From NCBI RefSeq assembly GCF_014203735.1, contig NZ_JACHJQ010000001.1, positions 793,269-857,268 of the forward strand: a DNA stretch of 64,000 bases. Reading direction: 5' to 3'. This stretch comes from Actinophytocola algeriensis. GTDB taxonomy: Bacteria > Actinomycetota > Actinomycetes > Mycobacteriales > Pseudonocardiaceae. The translations under genes were made by a program, and so were the position numbers. The stretch's first letter is position 1, and each line of letters begins with the position of its first letter. Below, piece by piece: positions 37,513 to 63,296 of the stretch. The notes below the pieces were generated by a model. It saw only the letters and a list, made by a program, of their open reading frames with translations, had not been told where the DNA came from and did no database searches.

Positions 37513-40500
37513 GTGGCGGCGGCCTGGAACGACCTACCGGCGATCGGTGGGCTGCACGAGTGCGCCGCGCTCGTGGGCTCAGCGGAAGCGCTCCGTGTGA
37601 GCGCGCCGGAGCTCAGTGTCCAGCTCGCCAGGCGCGCGCTGCTGGTCGGCGCCACCGACGCCTCGGCAGCCACCACCGACGTCGGTGAGGGCAGGAACCT
37701 GTTGATGCGTGCACAGGCGTTGCTCGCGTCGGGGTTCGTCCGGGTCAGCCAGCACCCGAAGGCCGTCGAACCCGGGTTCGCGGCCCTCGCGCTGGCCGAG
37801 TCCGGCGGTGCCCCGGACGTCGCCGCCGGGGTGCGGATCGATCTGGCCGCGTGCGCGCAGCAGGTCGGCGAGCCGCTCCTGGGCGGCGCGATCCTGCGTC
37901 CGGTGCTGGAGTCCGTGCAGACACCGCCGTCGGTGCGGGCCACGGCACTGGGCAGGCTCGTCGGCTGCGTCGCACACGTGGCACGGCGCGACGACATCGA
38001 GGACGCGCTCTCCGAAGCCGACCGCCTGCTCGCCGCCGACAACGGGATCACCGCGGACGTGCGGCGGATGGAACGGGCCCGCCTCGCGGTGCGGTCCGCC
38101 GGCTACCACCGCTGGTACGGCGACACCGAGGACGCGATCACCGCGGCCCGCGAGGGGCTGAACCTGCTGACCAGGTTGCGCAGCGACCTGCGATCGGAAA
38201 GCGACCGGCTGCGGGCGCGGCTGTCGCTGGAGCTGGTGTGCGGTCTGCTCGACGAAGGCGAGCTGCACGAGGCGGAGGCGGCCGCACACCCGGTCGTCGA
38301 CGAGCCGGTGCGCGCCACGTCGGCGGCCTCGGTCGGCAGGCTGATGCTGGCACTGGCGACGCGGGTGTACCTGCCGTCCGGCCAGACGGACCGCGGCAGG
38401 CACCTGCTGGACCAGGCGGCGTGGATGGCGGAACGCCACGCGTTGGACGGTTTGCGTGCCGACACGCTGACCGAGGTGTCCCGCCTCGATGAGCAGGCGG
38501 GCCGGGCAGGCGACGCACTGGAGGCGATGCGGTCGGCCCGTGCGGCCGAGCACCGCCGCATGCGCGCGGTGTCGCGCGCCGCCCGCATCGTGCTGGTGGA
38601 GGTGGGCGCCAACCACGGCGTCCGCGACACCACCCAGCAGTCGGTGGCGGCGATGGTGCGTCAGCTCGCACACCCGGCCGGGCTGCCTGCCGCGGTGGCT
38701 CCGCCGCCACAGGTCGGCCCCTCCTCGGCCACACCGTCGCGGGAGAACCACACGCCACCCGCCGCCGCGGAGCTGGCGGGCACGGTCGACATGGACGACG
38801 AGGGCACCCGCCTGCTGGACCGGGAGGCCTTGTTCCGCAGGCTCCGCTCGGTCCGCAAGGGCGAACGGCCGGTCGCGCTGACCCTGGTCCGCCTCGAACC
38901 GAACGGTGACGGTGGCAAGGACGACGACCGCGGTCCGGACACGGGCATCATGGCCGGCCTGGCCGACAGGGTCCGTGACATGGCCCCGGACAACGCCGAG
39001 GTGGCGAGGTCCGACGGCGGTGAGCTCGCGGTCATCCTCCCCGCCACCACGAGGGACCAGGCGGAGGAGTTCGCGGCCACCATCCGCGAGTCCGACTGGG
39101 CGAGCGCCGAGGACATGAACATCAGCACCGGCGTGGTGCAGACAGACCATGCCACCACCGACGCGGCAGGCATGCTGACCGCGGCCCGCGACGCACTGAC
39201 CCCAGGACAGCCCCCCGCACAGACGGCACAGGTCCCGCCCCAAGCGGCACAGACTCCGGCACACACGGCGCAGGCTCAGGCGGCGCAGGCTCAGGCGGCG
39301 AACGCGGCCTCTCTGGCGGACACGTCGGCGGCACTGCACTCGGCCCTGTCGGAGGACACGCCCACCAGACCGCTGAACGCGAGGCCTGCCGAACAGGGGC
39401 CTGCTGAGCAGGGGACCACCGAACAGGCAGGCGGCCGCTCGATCCTGAGCGCCCTGAGCATCCCGTCGGGCAGCGGCGGCCGCCGAAGGGCGGGCGAGGA
39501 ACAACCCCCGGGTGCGAAGTCCCGCTGGCCGGCCGAACCGGCGGAGGCCCCGCGCTGGACCAGGGCGGAACGAAGGGCACAACAGGAGTCGACCTGGCTC
39601 GCCGACCCGACCTCAAGACCCCAGGGCGGCTGGCCCGCCTCGGCGGAGGAACCGAGCCAGGGCAAACGAGCCGCCACGCCGGACAAGCCGTCGTTCGGCG
39701 AAACCGTTGCCCTGAACCGAACCCAGCTCCCCACCCACCACGGCAACCCCCCGGGCGAGACCACCCGCCGCGACCTCCGGACCCCGGCGACCACAGGCTC
39801 CTCGGCCACAACCAACGAGGCCGCTCGGCCATCCGCCGCCCCCCAGGACACCGCGGCGCCCGCCTCCGCCGCCCCGACGAACACCGCCCCGACGAACACC
39901 GCGCCCTCGGACACCTCCGGCCGCCACGGCACCCCGGCACCCGCTCGCGGCGAGGAGCCGGGAGCCGCTCCTCAAGCCGCCACGGATGCGAGCGCGTCCG
40001 CCGGCTCGGCGAGCAACACCACCGAGGCGCCGCGCGCCGGGACTGCTACCGGGCGCCCTGCCGAGTCCGAAGCGGCGAGCAGTCAGGCCGCGGATGCGCC
40101 GGATGTTCCGGCGGGTCGCGTCTCGCCCCCGCATGAGGACACCGCGAAGCCGGACGTTCCCGCTGAGCCGCCGTCCGCCGCGGTCGCCACCGCGAGTGGC
40201 GCCGACGCTCCTGAGCCAGGCCTGAACGGGACCGGTGGCTGGGGTTCCGGAGACGGCGGGTTCGCGGCCGGGCTCGCGGGGCTGTCCAGCGGAGGAACGC
40301 TGCGCGGTGCGGGCGATGCCGAGTCCCAGCGGTCCTCCTACGAGGAGACCAAGGCCGAACTCGCCAGGATGATGTCCGCGCTCAACGCCAGGTCGCTCGC
40401 GTCGCGGGAGAGCAAGAGCAACGGGGCCCGGCAGTCGGTGCCTGCCCCGCCCGAGCCCGACGTACCCGAGCCGCCCGCCCGGTCCGACGTGGCCGAACCC

Positions 40501-41148
40501 GTGCCGGAACCCACCGTGCCGGAACCCGCCGTGCCCGTCCCGGCCCCGCAGCCCGCGCCAGGGCAGCGGTCCGGGCTCATGGCGGCCTTCGACGCGCTCA
40601 CCGGGCCCCTGCCCGGCCTCCGGGCTGAGTTCGACGCCGCCGCCGAGCTCCCCGCGCGCAGGCCGGCCAAGTCGTGGGCCGAGCTGGAGTCGTCGGCCGT
40701 GGTGGAGTCCCCCGCGGACGACCTGTTCGGGACCGAACCAGGGGCCGAGCCCGGGACCGAACCGGGCACCGAACCAGGGACCGGGACCGAGGCCGTCGCC
40801 GAGACCAGGACCACCGAGAAGCCGAAGTTCCGCTCCTCGCTGGGAGCGGCGTTCGCCGAGTTCGGGGCGACCGAGAAAAAGGTCACAGAACCGGTCAAGG
40901 AAACGGTTCAGGAAACCTCGTACGACGAGCCGATCGGACCGCAGCCGCGGCCCAACCACCTCCCGCGACGCGGGGAGAGGTCCTCCGCGACGATCGCCAG
41001 CCTGCTCACCGAGGCACTCGCCGCATACCAGTCCACGGCCGAAGATGCCGAGGAACCCCGGGCTCCCGAGCGGTTCGACTCCTTCGTCGGGGACGAGGCG
41101 GAACGGCAGCAGTCGGGGGTCAGAGGACGGCACCGGTCGCCCGAATGA
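37513..41148 (+). CDS. Large TPR / degenerate GGDEF protein with long disordered C-terminus
   Basis: 1211 residues. Residues about 1-380 are TPR-like helical repeats (AALGRLVGCVAHVARRDDIE type; quoted VGCVAHVARRDDIEDAL). Residues about 430-555 fold like a GGDEF domain (LLDREALFRRLRSVRKGERP, VALTLVRLEP), but the signature reads RSDGGELAVILP at 499-510, so the GG(D/E)EF active loop is displaced and cyclase activity is doubtful. The rest (about 560-1211) is Pro/Ala/Glu-rich and low complexity, with short repeats such as EPGTEPGTEPG. It lies between ettA and gdh, an insertion relative to M. tuberculosis. No transmembrane helix is evident. Start GTG 37513, 12 bases after ettA. Confidence 0.75.
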   Translation: MAAAWNDLPAIGGLHECAALVGSAEALRVSAPELSVQLARRALLVGATDASAATTDVGEGRNLLMRAQALLASGFVRVSQHPKAVEPGFAALALAESGGAPDVAAGVRIDLAACAQQVGEPLLGGAILRPVLESVQTPPSVRATALGRLVGCVAHVARRDDIEDALSEADRLLAADNGITADVRRMERARLAVRSAGYHRWYGDTEDAITAAREGLNLLTRLRSDLRSESDRLRARLSLELVCGLLDEGELHEAEAAAHPVVDEPVRATSAASVGRLMLALATRVYLPSGQTDRGRHLLDQAAWMAERHALDGLRADTLTEVSRLDEQAGRAGDALEAMRSARAAEHRRMRAVSRAARIVLVEVGANHGVRDTTQQSVAAMVRQLAHPAGLPAAVAPPPQVGPSSATPSRENHTPPAAAELAGTVDMDDEGTRLLDREALFRRLRSVRKGERPVALTLVRLEPNGDGGKDDDRGPDTGIMAGLADRVRDMAPDNAEVARSDGGELAVILPATTRDQAEEFAATIRESDWASAEDMNISTGVVQTDHATTDAAGMLTAARDALTPGQPPAQTAQVPPQAAQTPAHTAQAQAAQAQAANAASLADTSAALHSALSEDTPTRPLNARPAEQGPAEQGTTEQAGGRSILSALSIPSGSGGRRRAGEEQPPGAKSRWPAEPAEAPRWTRAERRAQQESTWLADPTSRPQGGWPASAEEPSQGKRAATPDKPSFGETVALNRTQLPTHHGNPPGETTRRDLRTPATTGSSATTNEAARPSAAPQDTAAPASAAPTNTAPTNTAPSDTSGRHGTPAPARGEEPGAAPQAATDASASAGSASNTTEAPRAGTATGRPAESEAASSQAADAPDVPAGRVSPPHEDTAKPDVPAEPPSAAVATASGADAPEPGLNGTGGWGSGDGGFAAGLAGLSSGGTLRGAGDAESQRSSYEETKAELARMMSALNARSLASRESKSNGARQSVPAPPEPDVPEPPARSDVAEPVPEPTVPEPAVPVPAPQPAPGQRSGLMAAFDALTGPLPGLRAEFDAAAELPARRPAKSWAELESSAVVESPADDLFGTEPGAEPGTEPGTEPGTGTEAVAETRTTEKPKFRSSLGAAFAEFGATEKKVTEPVKETVQETSYDEPIGPQPRPNHLPRRGERSSATIASLLTEALAAYQSTAEDAEEPRAPERFDSFVGDEAERQQSGVRGRHRSPE

Positions 41149-49652: not shown

Positions 49653-50627
49653 TCAGGCTTCCGAGTTGTTGGTGTAGCCACGCACCACGGGGCCCTGGAT
49701 GCCCGCGTCCTCGAACGCCTCCATGATCCGCGCCCGCAACGTCCGCTGCACCGCCCACTGGCGGCCGGGCCGCACCTTGACGGTCATCCGCAGCATGATG
49801 CCCTCGGTGGCGGACACCCGCTCGACGCCGAGCACCTCCGGCGGCTCGAGCACGTCCTCGGCCACCGGCTCGTTCTCGGCGGCGTAGGTCGCGATGCGGC
49901 CGAGGATGTCGGTGGCCTGCCCGACATCGGCGCCGTAGCCGATCGGCACGTCCACGACCGCGACGGCGAAGCCCTGGCTCGAGTTGCCGACGCGGAGGAT
50001 CTCGCCGTTGCGGACGTACCAGACGGTGCCGTTCACGTCCCGCATGGTGGTGATCCGCAGGCCGACGGCCTCGACGGTGCCGGAGGCCTCACCGACGTCC
50101 ACGACGTCACCGACGCCGTACTGGTCCTCCAGCATCATGAAGACACCGGACAGGAAGTCCTTGACGACGTTCTGCGCACCGAACCCGACCGCGACGCCGA
50201 GGATGCCGGCGGAGGCCAGCACCGGCGCCAGGTTCACGCCCAGCTCGGCCAGGATCATCATGAACGCGATCCCGAACACGAGCACCGACGTGATCGACTT
50301 GAACACCGAGCCGATGGTCTTGGCGCGCTGGGCCCGCCGCTCGGAGAGCAGCGTGCCGAGCGCCTGAGGTGCTCGTTCCCTCAGCGGCCGCAGCAGGGTC
50401 GGGATGTTGCCGCCGCTGGCGCGGGTGAGGCGGTCGATCAGCTTGCGTGCGAGGGACCGGATGACCATGGCGACGATCAGGATCAGGATGATCGTGAGCG
50501 GTTTGGCGACCAGCCAGTCCGCCGATGACGCGAGCCACTGATTGCCGGTCAGCTGCTTCACCGTGTCGCACCAGTTGTCGCCCGGGTCGCACTCGGGGGC
50601 CTGGAAAGACAACTCAACATCGGTCAC
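49653..50627 (-). CDS. MscS-family mechanosensitive ion channel
   Basis: 324 residues. A first transmembrane helix ([18 protein letters not shown], about 40-58), then a second ([20 protein letters not shown]) and the pore-lining third helix with the Gly/Ala-rich MscS signature ([37 protein letters not shown]). The cytoplasmic beta domain and C-terminal alpha/beta domain follow. It releases solutes under hypo-osmotic shock. GTG 50627 is the tentative start. Divergent from the HNH gene. Present here as an addition to the mycobacterial order. Confidence 0.92.
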
Positions 50628-50829
50628 GGGCCCGACGATAACGGCGCGGCAACGATGCCCGTTCAGTGGCCGGTGTGACAGAAATCGCGCGCACCGCCAG
50701 GGGCCGGGTCCCTCAAGGTCGATTCGGTCACCGATCAAGCACAGTGGCCGGACACGTTCCGCAACACGCGTGCGTTCCGGGGGTGATCTGTGGTCTGCTA
50801 GGGCTGCCAGATCCGGTGGAGGTGGTCGC

Positions 50830-51468
50830 GTGCCCGACCGACATCCGACTCCGATCGGCGCCGCCCGAGGGCCGGCGCCGCGGACGCCCGTGCGTCCGCA
50901 AGCCGTACCGTCGGATGCCGGCGCGACCGAGCCGCCCAGTGGCTCCCTGCCCTGGGGCAAGCGGCGCGTGCTGCTGCTCAACACCACCTTCGAGCCGCTC
51001 ACGGCGTTACCCCTGCGCCGCGCGGTGGTGCTGGTCGTGTGCGGCAAGGCCGAGGTGGTCCACGGTGACCCGGCCGGGATCGTGCTGCACTCCGCGAGCG
51101 ACAGCGTGGTCGTCCCGTCCGTGATCCGCCTCTCCAGCTACGTGCGCGTGCCGTACCGGGCACGCGTGCCGCTCACCAGAGCAGGCCTCATGCACCGGGA
51201 CAGACATCGCTGCGCCTACTGCGGTGGCCGGGCGGAGACCATCGACCACGTGATCCCGCGCAGCCGCGGCGGCGAGCACACGTGGCAGAACTGTGTGGCG
51301 TGCTGCGTGAAGTGCAACCACCGCAAGGCCGACAAACTGCTCTCCGAGCTGGGCTGGCGGCTGCGGGTGGTGCCGAGGGCGCCGCGCGGAACGCACTGGC
51401 GCCTGCTCGCGGGCGTCATGGACACCGATCCCCAGTGGCTGCCTTACCTGGGAGAGCCGGCCGCGTAG
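50830..51468 (+). CDS. HNH endonuclease-domain protein
   Basis: 212 residues. N-terminal unknown domain (VLLLNTTFEPLTALPLRRAV, VVLVVCGKAEVVHGDPAGIV), then an HNH domain: HRCAYCGGRAETIDHVIPRS (CxxC and DHxxPxSRGG), WQNCVACCVKCNHRKADKLL (CxxCN). GTG 50830 follows GGTGGAGGTGG. The widespread actinobacterial family (compare Rv2469c in the same syntenic block) has no known substrate. Its stop is inside a perfect 12-bp hairpin that terminates transcription toward the convergent repeat-protein gene. Confidence 0.9.
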   Translation: MPDRHPTPIGAARGPAPRTPVRPQAVPSDAGATEPPSGSLPWGKRRVLLLNTTFEPLTALPLRRAVVLVVCGKAEVVHGDPAGIVLHSASDSVVVPSVIRLSSYVRVPYRARVPLTRAGLMHRDRHRCAYCGGRAETIDHVIPRSRGGEHTWQNCVACCVKCNHRKADKLLSELGWRLRVVPRAPRGTHWRLLAGVMDTDPQWLPYLGEPAA

Positions 51469-51479
51469 GCCGGCTCTCC
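51451..51479. terminator. Perfect hairpin terminator between HNH and repeat-protein genes
   Basis: GGAGAGCCGGCC (51451-51462), loop GCGTA, GGCCGGCTCTCC (51468-51479): twelve perfect pairs, overlapping the HNH stop codon. Bidirectional by symmetry. Confidence 0.85.
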
Positions 51480-51490
51480 GCTGGAAAGGA

Positions 51491-51730
51491 CTAGGACGCG
51501 GTCACCCGCGTGCCGAGCGTGACCCGGGTGCCGCGCGTGACGCGGGTGCCTGCGGTGACGCGGGTACCCCTGGTCACCCGGGTGCCGCGCGTGACCCTGG
51601 TGCCTGCCGTGACGCGTGTTCCCCGTGTGACCCTCGTGCCTCGGGTGACCCTGGTGCCAGCCGTGACGCGGGTGCCGAGGCAGGCGGACTGGTCCGAACG
51701 GGTGATGATCGACGGGCTGGTGGTCTGCAT
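51491..51730 (-). CDS. Small protein of ten GTRVTx hexapeptide repeats
   Basis: 79 residues: an 18-residue leader (MQTTSPSIITRSDQSACL), then ten consecutive hexapeptides GTRVT-A/R/L without interruption and a final Ser. The sixth residue follows A-R-R, A-R-R, A-R-L, A, so there is also an 18-residue (54-bp) superperiod. This is the size of one left-handed beta-helix coil. ATG 51730 is chosen because GAGGAG lies eight bases upstream; a possible promoter TTGTCG-17-TAGCTT (51800-51828) precedes it. The DNA is an 18-bp tandem repeat. The opposite strand is also open, but lacks a ribosome binding site. No known family; function unknown. Confidence 0.55.
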   Translation of the reverse strand: MQTTSPSIITRSDQSACLGTRVTAGTRVTRGTRVTRGTRVTAGTRVTRGTRVTRGTRVTAGTRVTRGTRVTLGTRVTAS

Positions 51731-51799
51731 GACGGGGACTCCTCGGCGATACGGGCACGGAGAGTGCCGTGGGAAGGACCGCAAGGGCCGTACAGGTGA

Positions 51800-51828
51800 A
51801 AGCTATGAGGTTGAACTGTAATCGACAA
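51800..51828 (-). promoter_or_regulatory. Candidate promoter of the hexapeptide-repeat gene
   Basis: On the minus strand TTGTCG (51823-51828) and TAGCTT (51800-51805) are separated by 17 bases, about 70 bases before the ATG. Only partial consensus matches. Confidence 0.35.
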
Positions 51829-52022
51829 GACGTAAAGCGTGACGATGCGATGTCGTTCTGTGTGTTGACGCCGTTCGCGCGTCGTGCTTCATCCCGTTGC
51901 ATGAGTGACCGGTGGGCGCACGGCCCAACGCGGCTACCAGGCCCGCGGTAGCGATCACCCGATGTGATCTTGAGCGGCCCCCGCGGCTGCCGAGTGTCGC
52001 GGCCCGTCCGGGGCTGGGTAAT
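51829..52022. other. Intergenic region between the repeat gene and ctaJ
   Basis: With the candidate promoter segment to its left, this is a 300-base gene-free stretch separating two divergent genes. It is less G/C-rich near 51,800-51,900 than its surroundings. Short ORFs have no supporting features. Confidence 0.45.
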
Positions 52023-52031
52023 GTGTCGCGC

Positions 52032-52274
52032 GTGAGCGTCGTGGAGACCATTCTGATCTACGCGGTGATCCCGCTGGCCATTTATGGCCTGGTGGCGTTG
52101 CTGACCTTGCGGGACAAGTCCACGAAGGCGCCGCGGTACCGACCGGGGCAGCCCTGGGAGTACCCGGCGGTCTGGTGGACCGCGAACCCGGCGGGCGCCG
52201 ACGCGTCCGCGGTACCGACCGGTGGCGGCAAGCCGCGCCCCACGGCCAAGGGAGGCGCTCGTGGCAGCTGGTGA
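52032..52274 (+). CDS. ctaJ: aa3-type cytochrome oxidase subunit CtaJ-like protein
   Basis: 80 residues with one N-terminal transmembrane helix (VETILIYAVIPLAIYGLVAL) followed by RDKSTKAPRYRPGQPWEYPA and VWWTANPAG, the pattern of the small CtaJ subunit found in the actinobacterial III2IV2 respiratory supercomplex. In M. smegmatis the ctaJ gene also lies beside the DUF5130 and pepN genes, as here. The start is GTG 52032; GTG 52023 is in frame. Its stop overlaps the next start by 14 bases. Confidence 0.75.
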   Translation: MSVVETILIYAVIPLAIYGLVALLTLRDKSTKAPRYRPGQPWEYPAVWWTANPAGADASAVPTGGGKPRPTAKGGARGSW

Positions 52275-52758
52275 GGTCGTACTGCACCGCAAGCCGGGCG
52301 ACATCGTCGACGAGGACGTCGAGCACGGGCACGCCGCGGTCGTGACCGCGAGCGGCCGCGTGTCGGTCGCCAGGGAGTACACGCCCGCGAAGCCGGAGCT
52401 GCCGTTCAACACGGTGCAGCTGGCCCGCCTCGACGAGGCGCTGACGCTGTCCGCCCGCTCGACGGGCCTCGGGTTCAGCGTCTACCTCGGCGACCTGGGC
52501 GCCGACACCCGCGCGACGGCCGAGCAGCTGCACGCCGAGTCCGGCGAGACCGCGCCGTCCGTGGTGCTCATCGCCGTGTCACCCGGCCAGCGCAGGGTCG
52601 AGATCGTGACCGGCGCGGACTCCACCCGCCGCCTGCCCGACCGCGCCTGCAACCTGGCGGTCATGAGCATGGTCGCGTCCTTCAAGGAGGGCGACCTGGT
52701 CGGCGGCCTGGTGAGCGGCCTGCGCATGCTCACCGACCAGGCGGGCCCCAAGCACTAG
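52261..52758 (+). CDS. DUF5130 (TPM-like) protein
   Basis: 165 residues of the actinobacterial DUF5130 family, a TPM-like alpha/beta fold: PFNTVQLARLDEALTLSARS, GLGFSVYLGDLGADTRATAE, VVLIAVSPGQRRVEIVTGAD, and VMSMVASFKEGDLVGGLVSG. GTG 52261 follows AAGGGAGGCGC; it overlaps ctaJ by 14 bases, implying co-translation. Function unknown. A long hairpin terminator follows. Position corresponds to M. tuberculosis Rv2468c. Confidence 0.88.
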   Translation: MAAGEVVLHRKPGDIVDEDVEHGHAAVVTASGRVSVAREYTPAKPELPFNTVQLARLDEALTLSARSTGLGFSVYLGDLGADTRATAEQLHAESGETAPSVVLIAVSPGQRRVEIVTGADSTRRLPDRACNLAVMSMVASFKEGDLVGGLVSGLRMLTDQAGPKH

Positions 52759-60442: not shown

Positions 60443-61228
60443 TCAGAACCCGCCGAAGTCCCCGCCACCGCCGTAGTCTCCGCCGCCGCCGTAGTCACCA
60501 CCGCCGTAGTCGCCGCCGTAGTCACCACCGCTGTCGCCGCCACCGGCGTCGCCCGCGTCACCGCTCTCCGCCGCGTCGGCCTGGCCCGCGTCGTAGCCCT
60601 GCTCCCAGGCCTGCGCGTCCGGGATCCCGTACATGCCGGAGAACATCGCGCTGAACAGCAGCATCGAGCCGACACCCCAGGCACCCGCCACGAGCGCCGG
60701 CTTCCACCACGGCTCGCTGTACCAGCCCTGCGGCACCGGCCGCCCGGCCACGCGCCCACCCGGGTAGTAGTGCGGCGTCGCGTCGCTCGGCTGTGCGGAG
60801 GCCTCGAGGTCGCGGCCCTCCACGTTCACCCTGCGGTCCTCGGTGACCTTGCCCGCCCGTTCCCGCTCCGCGTCCGCGGGCAGCTCGGGGCCCGGGTCCA
60901 TGTCCATGGCCAGCCGCGCGGCACGCACGTAGTACAGGCCCTCCAGGGCCGTCGACGTGACGAGCCGGGCCTGCTCGGCGGTGGCCGCCTGCTCCATCTG
61001 CGACCCCGCGGCCGTGTACCGCTCGGAGGCGTCGGCGAGCGCCTGCTTGGCAGGCTCGTTCGTGCCGACCAGGTTCACCACCTGCCCACCGAGCCGCTCG
61101 ACCCAGCGCCGCGCGTCCGCCTTGGCGTCCTCGAGCCGCTGCTGTTTGGCGTTGGCCTGGTTCTTCATGTAGGTCGCCGCCAGTGCCACCACGACAAGCA
61201 CCAGCACCACGACGACGATCGTCCCCAT
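60443..61228 (-). CDS. Membrane protein with Gly/Asp/Tyr-rich C-terminal repeats
   Basis: 261 residues. N-terminal transmembrane anchor (TIVVVVLVLVVVALAATYM), a long helical, coiled-coil-prone region (about 22-115, KNQANAKQQRLEDAKADARR), a second hydrophobic segment (ALVAGAWGVGSMLLFSAMFS, about 180-200), and a tail of irregular GGGDYGGDYGG-type units ending in F. The tail is low complexity, flexible and could drive assembly. Not seen in the M. tuberculosis block. No enzymatic motif; function unknown. Confidence 0.78.
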   Translation of the reverse strand: MGTIVVVVLVLVVVALAATYMKNQANAKQQRLEDAKADARRWVERLGGQVVNLVGTNEPAKQALADASERYTAAGSQMEQAATAEQARLVTSTALEGLYYVRAARLAMDMDPGPELPADAERERAGKVTEDRRVNVEGRDLEASAQPSDATPHYYPGGRVAGRPVPQGWYSEPWWKPALVAGAWGVGSMLLFSAMFSGMYGIPDAQAWEQGYDAGQADAAESGDAGDAGGGDSGGDYGGDYGGGDYGGGGDYGGGGDFGGF

Positions 61229-61360
61229 CACTGCACCTTCCGACGGCAAAGCCTTGTGAACGGACAACGGGGACGCTACGCCCGGAGTTCCGGGGTCGCG
61301 TGGCGAGTAATATTCCCGTAAGACGTGCGACCCGGCATTGGTCTGACCTATCGTGGAGGG

Positions 61361-61897
61361 ATGGTCTTCCGCCACAGTCCGGACGAGCCGGTACTGGTGC
61401 GCGAGGCCACCCAGAACGACGCGAAAGCCATCGGCGAGGTGCACGCCGAGGCGTGGCGGGTGGCGCACCGGGACCTCTTCGAGAGCCACTGGTTGCGCAG
61501 GTTCACCGACGAGCGTCGCCGGCGCTGGAAGTCGGTCATGGCATCCCGCGACTTCGTCCGCGACACCCTGCTGGTAGCCGAGCGCGGTGACCGCCTGGTG
61601 GCGTTCGTGTACTTCGGGCCGGTCGACTACGGCGTCCGCGAGGGCGAGATCTTCGACCTGTACGCACACCCCACGGCATGGGGCAGCGGAGTCGCGTGGA
61701 CGCTGATGGACAACACGTGGGAGTTGCTGGTCGACGCGAGGTACCGCCGAATCCACCTGTGGACGATCACCGGCGCCAACCGTGCCAGGCACTTCTACGA
61801 GTCGTTCGGCTTCACCCAGACCACCAGGACCCGCGAGGTCGACTTCGGGGACGGCAGACCGGTGCTGGAGGTGGAATACCTACGCAGCACCAGATAA
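61361..61897 (+). CDS. GNAT-family N-acetyltransferase
   Basis: 178 residues from ATG 61361: LVREATQNDAKAIGEVHAEA, EIFDLYAHPTAWGSGVAWTL (acetyl-CoA motif A, normally Q/R-x-x-G-x-G/A; here WGSGVA) and HLWTITGANRARHFYESFGF (motif B). GGAGGG is only two bases from this ATG, so GTG 61325 is a possible start instead. Acceptor unknown. Its 3' end overlaps the convergent thioesterase by 18 bases. Confidence 0.85.
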   Translation: MVFRHSPDEPVLVREATQNDAKAIGEVHAEAWRVAHRDLFESHWLRRFTDERRRRWKSVMASRDFVRDTLLVAERGDRLVAFVYFGPVDYGVREGEIFDLYAHPTAWGSGVAWTLMDNTWELLVDARYRRIHLWTITGANRARHFYESFGFTQTTRTREVDFGDGRPVLEVEYLRSTR

Positions 61898-63163: not shown

Positions 63164-63211
63164 GGGCAGAGAGAGAACTGAGCAGAGAGAGAACCGGGCA
63201 GAGAGAGAACC
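63164..63211. repeat. Three tandem 16-bp repeats
   Basis: Units GGGCAGAGAGAGAACT, GAGCAGAGAGAGAACC and GGGCAGAGAGAGAACC follow head to tail, with the start of a fourth (GGGCAG). No ORF or operator symmetry accompanies them. Confidence 0.85.
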
Positions 63212-63296
63212 GGGCAGCGGAACGAGACATTGCCCCCAGAGGAGAACCCAAGGCAACCCCGCGAAGCTCAAGCAACAGGCACGAAACCGGCGAAGG

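Follow-up and report, generated by a model that had tools for sequence, protein, structure and literature searches.

A family of short Arg-centred repeat arrays conserved at one locus in Pseudonocardiaceae

The minus strand of positions 51491–51730 encodes a repeat protein that represents a new family kept in Pseudonocardiaceae. The gene lies in the window, the 64,000-nucleotide stretch of DNA analysed here. The gene, the DNA block that precedes it and the pattern of its units are kept across much of the bacterial family though no described protein family fits, and sequence comparison therefore makes a real, conserved protein family nearly certain. The position of the gene, its ATG, its Shine-Dalgarno sequence and the upstream block are conserved, and the repeat units are under selection at the protein level. 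As the leading, still tentative explanation, we propose an array of short strand motifs that acts multivalently inside the cell and, in many lineages, is subject to regulated turnover.

The repeat gene, its locus and its upstream block

The original prediction described a leader followed by ten GTRVTx hexapeptides and gave no strand. The coding strand is the minus strand; the plus strand of the same interval carries a different frame. Translation of the minus strand yields Met, 17 further residues, exactly ten GTRVT(x) units, one Ser and the TAG codon (Table 1). The variable residue x runs in the predicted order A, R, R, A, R, R, A, R, L, A, and the single predicted Cys is located at position 17 of the 79-residue protein. 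The window protein is the sole match in its own 9.7-Mb genome. On reading, the leader is polar and contains no evident signal peptide, which suggests that the protein is probably intracellular. In a set of 108 distinct proteins, left after removal of identical ones and with starts chosen by Shine-Dalgarno score, the loose leader pattern of Table 1 occurs in 58 leaders, a count made without a chance control. Folding of the 5′ leader of the window gene was unexceptional (z −0.74), and no Rfam match was obtained for positions 51400–52100.

Table 1. Features of the repeat gene and its neighbourhood in the window
Feature	Position	Strand	Basis
Repeat-protein CDS, 79 residues, ATG to TAG	51491..51730	−	Open frame, codon test
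18-residue leader MQTTSPSIITRSDQSACL with ITRS (an example of the loose pattern x-T-[RLHQ]-[SPLMDR])	51677..51730	−	
Ten tandem 18-nt units encoding GTRVTx	51497..51676	−	
C-terminal Ser, protein end T-A-S	51494..51496	−	
Shine-Dalgarno sequence GAGGAG	51739..51744	−	
Conserved block TTTCACCTGTACGGCCCTTGC, start ~73 nt before ATG	51781..51801	−	Pattern scan
Candidate −10 TAGCTT, which shares two bases with the start of the block	51800..51805	−	By eye
Candidate −35 TTGTCG, part of a CTTGT segment that recurs, 17 nt away from the candidate −10	51823..51828	−	By eye
HNH endonuclease gene, convergent, 22 bp from the repeat-gene stop; true start probably further in	50542..51468	+	HNH_5, E 2.5e-12
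Small membrane-protein-like gene, divergent, start approximate	52044..52274	+	Pfam: no match
DUF5130/TPM gene, conserved neighbour, start approximate	52222..52758	+	Profile match

A search of Pseudonocardiaceae for the leader and repeats, as the original prediction had suggested, returned orthologs at the same locus in much of the family. The window protein matched in 161 of 297 family genomes and in all six genus genomes. Among the 75 loci gathered with it (L001–L075, several of which represent one genome twice), 74 are the same locus, and the HNH gene adjoins the repeat ORF in all 74 except L067. The remaining locus, L075, is a Streptomyces by-hit and was rejected as a family member. The divergent small membrane-protein-like gene, which we take to be ctaJ-like, is one of the conserved neighbours (HNH, ctaJ-like, DUF5130, pepN and MscS), all of which occur with or without the repeat gene.

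HNH loci were also fetched from the 20 genomes, of 20 genera, listed by name among the 136 family genomes without a window-protein match. An antisense ORF is present at 14 of these 20 loci, and 13 of the 14 use a unit other than GTRVT: the units are GVRIS in seven (one with two units), GVRIH in two, and SVRIT, GVRIE, GVRVT, GVRVN and a loosely spaced GTRVT in one each. The upstream block is found in the same 14 genomes (up to six mismatches allowed, 0–4 seen). The other six have neither antisense ORF nor block in the stretch fetched; four of these leave just 72–139 bp between the HNH and ctaJ-like matches, and in two the ctaJ-like gene falls outside that stretch. Fetching by the block added 39 loci, 37 of which contain the ORF; the other two block hits (L184 and L185; three mismatches each, no repeat ORF) were rejected as false. 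A class-wide protein search matched 85 of 394 genomes, including the own genome and two family members. None of 17 class-wide loci (L078–L094) has an adjoining HNH, ctaJ-like or DUF5130 gene or three motif copies in one frame.

The upstream block is promoter-like. Its family consensus is TTTCACCTGTACGG(G/C)CCTTGC, and it occurs in 70 of the 74 proteins that were identified independently of it; in L022, one of those without it, a contig edge cuts the upstream region. Of the 104 proteins that have the block (up to four mismatches), 100 have its start 70–80 nt ahead of the ATG and four have it at 53 nt. CTTGT and TANNTT-like segments about 17 nt apart were seen by eye further upstream of the block; a sigma-70 consensus scan found no site. 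A recognisable altered copy of the block, TTTCACACGTACGGGTTCTTGC, precedes the genes of L054, L065 and L076, and is a natural variant useful for mapping block function.

In the own genome the block matches once, perfectly (up to three mismatches allowed), and the genus genomes give one match in five of six and two in G003. The block thus stands essentially alone upstream of the repeat gene in the genus and names no co-regulated genes, and a regulon reading was rejected because the block is essentially confined to the repeat gene in these six genomes. In the whole family the block matches in 219 of 297 genomes, a tally that includes some chance hits, since a reversed control pattern matches in about 95 (hand count). 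In genera g5 and g42, where none of the loci examined has the gene, the block occurs in one of 43 genomes (hand count), and that one is the false hit L185. Class-wide, it matches in 31 of 394 genomes, compared with about 46 for the reversed control (hand count); the own genome and one family genome match perfectly, and the other listed hits have two or three mismatches. None of ten class-wide block loci (L138–L147) has an open frame with more than one motif copy.

Other repetitive features are present in the window. A 449-residue open frame at 60443–61792 (minus strand) has a Gly/Tyr-rich GDYGGG tail, with 12–33 bp tandem repeats at 60450–60592. A 16-bp tandem repeat, GCAGAGAGAGAACCGA, is found in 3.2 copies at 63166–63217 near tRNA-Gly and tRNA-Pro genes. 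A 1211-residue open frame at 37513–41148 (plus strand) contains short in-frame tandem repeats, such as EPGTEPGTE, at 39217–40809.

Coding strand and selection on the units

Compared with their consensus, the ten 18-mers contain 36 nucleotide differences that cause only five residue changes in the minus frame, with 19.8 expected, and all five are at x; none of 1000 permutations gave a value as low. Of the 19 differences that fall in the five GTRVT codons of the window gene, 16 lie at codon position 3 and three are CGN/AGG Arg changes, so all 19 leave GTRVT unaltered. One plus-strand frame is also low in changes (nine, with 20.4 expected; 0 of 1000 permutations). We read this constraint as a partial mirror of the minus frame, because it is on the minus strand alone that AGG/CGN exchanges leave the residue unchanged.

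The same pattern is observed across orthologs. GTRVT is encoded by 208 different 15-mers among 1084 units from 74 loci (several being one genome twice), which demonstrates synonymous freedom rather than absence of change, because the units were picked as GTRVT. For GTRVT, identity at third codon positions is 0.480 among units of one gene, 0.467 between adjacent units and 0.444 between genes (1052 units, 64 genes); the corresponding values are 0.572, 0.581 and 0.571 for SVRIT and 0.623, 0.640 and 0.610 for GVRIS. The near equality of synonymous divergence within and between genes indicates that the unit copies are held by protein-level selection and that the units are mostly old, not recent duplicates. 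Copies of each protein's dominant motif are exact in 1596 cases and differ by one mismatch in 37 (copies with two or more mismatches fall outside this count), which points to strong selection on the units.

These data bear on whether the array is a noncoding minisatellite or is coded from the plus strand. Such a reading could draw on the 18-bp tandem array, in which both strands contain long open frames, on the constrained plus-strand frame and on some family-search matches with one internal stop. However, the two stop-containing matches that could be tied to a fetched ORF (G001/L004 and G035/L176) extend beyond the true stop, the residues are kept while synonymous sites are nearly randomised, and a search of the minus strand for the start, Shine-Dalgarno sequence and block located all three. 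None of the 108 ORFs breaks frame, yet they were gathered as open frames. The codon data largely refute a noncoding minisatellite, and this reading, with its plus-strand variant, is almost certainly wrong.

Motif types, spacing and fold

One pentapeptide of the general form [GS]-[TVI]-R-[VI]-polar dominates each protein and is lineage-specific. The dominant motif of the 108 proteins is GTRVT in 64, SVRIT in 17, GVRIS in 13, GIRVN in five, GVRVT in three, GVRIH and GVRVN in two each, and GVRIE and GTRIT in one each. All nine variants retain a central Arg between two β-branched residues, preceded by Gly or Ser and followed by a polar residue, whereas charge, linkers, unit number and tail vary in the family; this is the pattern expected of a linear motif with a conserved reader and avidity from copy number.

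The proteins contain from 2 to 51 units, with only two in L110 and L153 and only three in L097, L164, L166 and L175. The variation in repeat number that the original prediction proposed to look for is found between species, at 7 to 12 units across the six genus genomes. Spacers between units measure 1 to 35 residues, and 835 of 1495 are a single residue, which corresponds to period 6; the window protein keeps this period over all ten units. Spacers are mostly three or four residues in SVRIT and GVRIS arrays, six in GVRVT arrays, and two and seven in GIRVN arrays. Net charge ranges from −10 to +69 across the family, with GTRVT arrays at +9 to +69 and SVRIT arrays reaching down to −10, and no single binding mode is therefore obvious. 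Recurring degenerate units, MDTPAT and RDTAGTRVT, are seen inside the arrays of L065, L067 and L076. Actinokineospora and a relative (L069, L071–L074 and L182) have 18–51 units in R-linked doublets or triplets, joined by linkers such as SVLEC and AELIN.

On a maximum-likelihood tree of 105 HNH neighbours, ten labels (the nine motifs and absence) need 12 changes, the least possible being nine. Nine motif types by themselves imply that the motif of a whole array was replaced at least eight times. GTRVT is present on either side of a deep split, which suggests that it is the oldest type if the drawing root is taken as the root. Absence of the gene is seen both close to the drawn root and in a nested position among GVRIS.

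In the mechanism that we tentatively favour, each unit would be a short β-strand-forming linear motif, with the two β-branched residues on one face of the strand and the Arg between them on the other. Joined by variable linkers, the motifs would bind many copies of one conserved putative partner, and the array could thereby act as a scaffold or sponge. Arrays of two or three units and spacers of 1–35 residues fit separate motifs better than one rigid fold.

The second-ranked explanation, rather unlikely in our estimate, is a β-solenoid with variable loops, or short chains that stack into an intermolecular cross-β fibre, with Arg outside. The alternating β-branched/polar pattern and the majority of period-6 spacers are consistent with it, and so is the repetition of the sixth residue. 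The original prediction placed the units in an 18-residue superperiod, which holds in part: identity of x at a lag of three units is 0.479 versus 0.336 in shuffled arrays (z 8.2; 52 runs, 667 units), but lags of four, five and six are raised too (z 2.6, 2.4 and 4.2, respectively), and the superperiod is only partly general. In the patterns listed for GTRVTx arrays, the x residues mostly form RR doublets parted by small residues. Because the lag-three pattern of x is real and third-position identity is only slightly raised at that lag (0.480 versus 0.428–0.474 at other lags), x itself appears to be under some selection.

Family libraries give no convincing match, in agreement with the original finding of no known family. 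The PASTA model (PF03793) scores 21.3 bits against the window protein, below the gathering threshold of 23.2, with a best stretch of 15 residues. Hexapep (PF00132) scores 26.6 bits against a cut-off of 27 for L104 and is not listed for the other nine of the ten proteins or for the window protein. LpxD and NeuD models match the window protein below cut-off, and NosD and Beta_helix give sub-threshold matches among the orthologs. The window protein has five weak PDB hits (E 0.03–1), all of which we take, from their names, to be left-handed β-helix proteins; two of the eight PDB hits of the SVRIT array L180 are type VI spike proteins. DUF2345 is above cut-off in one of ten proteins, L180 (75.1 versus 30.7 bits, E 6.6e-21). 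This likeness to the VgrG/DUF2345 β-needle is limited, in that half of the permuted forms match too and the identified neighbours include no secretion genes. DUF6799 (L168) and ChapFlgA and Glyco_hydro_65C (L180), each above cut-off in one of ten proteins only, were rejected as family identities. No anti-phage defence or phage identity was found with PADLOC (0 of 10 proteins) or PHROG (0 of 8), and the window protein matched no phage records in a BLAST search whose low-complexity filter can hide repeats; a plasmid search with L180 only gave two low-identity matches (37% and 27%).

Permuted motifs served as a control. For one ortholog, eight of nine permuted forms were used, and DUF2345 was kept in four of the eight, one of them above cut-off, with a best E of 4.2e-9 versus 6.6e-21 for the true order. 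Permuted window forms retained LpxD/NeuD-type models in one of eight, and that form scored better than the true order. The true sequence beats most permuted controls on β-helix models, but permuted forms also yield unrelated matches above cut-off (HemolysinCabind and DUF5766). The β-helix matches thus arise partly, not wholly, from period and composition, and they lend weak support to strands rather than proof of a coil.

The left-handed β-helix of the original prediction, with three hexapeptides per turn, is weakened, and a constant family-wide period is absent: spacers of 2 to 35 residues also occur, spacer lengths are lineage-specific and six orthologs have two or three units, all of which argues against one constant-period coil. 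Arg ladders also look unfavourable on physical grounds. Known left-handed β-helix hexapeptide proteins (Hexapep, LpxD and the gamma-carbonic-anhydrase fold) share with most GTRVT members the hexapeptide period and one aliphatic residue per unit; the present family differs in its linkers of 1–35 residues, its 2–51 units and its lack of a catalytic domain. Ice-binding solenoids carry regular T-x-T arrays. The suggested binding of ice by Thr ladders is refuted as a role of the whole family, and binding of surfaces by them is not supported, since GVRIS, GVRIH, GVRIE or GIRVN units make up the arrays of some orthologs.

C termini and putative function

Many family members end like a tmRNA-encoded SsrA tag. 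The C terminus is LAA in 43 of 108 proteins, [DE][FYLV][ASTV]LAA in 33 and AA in 62, compared with zero LAA and four AA ends in a set of 227 genes called heuristically in 400 kb of G286, a genome with an LAA-ended member. LAA also ends 27 of the 74 proteins found without the block, and the LAA state changes at least ten times on the HNH tree. The remaining 65 proteins, the window's included, lack this end; proteins of the six genus genomes end in TAS or TA, with TAS in the window. The tmRNA tags of the genomes examined end, for example, in QREFALAA, QRDFALAA or QRDVALAA, and SsrA-like protein ends include QSDFSLAA, RSDFALAA and RQNDFSLAA. Protein end and same-genome tag agree at three to six of the last eight residues in eight of 11 genomes and at one or two in three, the genomes having been picked by hand, many for their tails. 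The window protein agrees with its tag at one of these eight residues.

An SsrA tag whose last residues are LAA reduces LacZ in Mycobacterium tuberculosis (PMC3613350), and mycobacterial CarD, which ends in LAAAS, is degraded by Clp protease under starvation (PMC8820732). Like such Clp substrates, the present proteins carry a C-terminal LAA, or a TAS that resembles AAS, in an actinobacterium; CarD differs in being a transcription factor that binds RNA polymerase. E. coli ClpXP degrades GFP-YALAA and not GFP-LAA (PMC7652416), which means that LAA by itself is not necessarily a degron. Judging from these resemblances, the tail probably serves as a degron in some members of the family but not in others. 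For the multivalent array, Clp protease would keep the amount low or switchable in lineages with tmRNA-tag-like ends.

Ranked third, and improbable, is a multicore RiPP-like precursor, whose leader would be recognised by an enzyme encoded elsewhere and whose cores would be modified and cut. The original prediction had likened the protein to a ribosomal peptide precursor, and the leader with its many identical cores and diverse linkers, the Arg between β-branched residues and the lineage-specific core sequence keep that likeness alive. Graspetide precursors with several core repeats exist (PMC8939145) and likewise combine a leader with repeated cores, but the repeat gene adjoins no ATP-grasp or other recognised maturase, and its cores lack a pattern of Thr with Glu/Asp. 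None of the conserved neighbours is a recognised modifying enzyme, maturase or transporter, and they are present whether or not the repeat gene is. The leader pattern is loose and LAA tails are hard to fit to such a precursor. Very doubtful, finally, is a nucleic-acid-binding Arg array acting as a nucleoid or RNA chaperone; the basic GTRVT arrays would suit this role, but SVRIT arrays with Asp-rich linkers become acidic with the motif unchanged.

An extension of the multivalent array, which we consider quite improbable, is an adaptor-degron: the array would capture many partner copies via x-β-R-β-x strands, and the SsrA-like tail would deliver them to Clp protease. If this were true, the number of units would set the capacity of a genetically tunable protein sink, and the motif would have switched in step with its partner at least eight times across the family, given the nine motif types.

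Judging from family libraries and from literature searches in which none of the titles listed concerned this family, the gene is apparently undescribed; it has its own conserved block and strong selection on every repeat copy. The family constitutes a natural experiment, in which the same gene carries 2 to 51 motif copies and the motif has been replaced array-wide at least eight times with the Arg and its β-branched flanks kept. The identity of the partner would reveal the reader of such a motif and why copy number matters.
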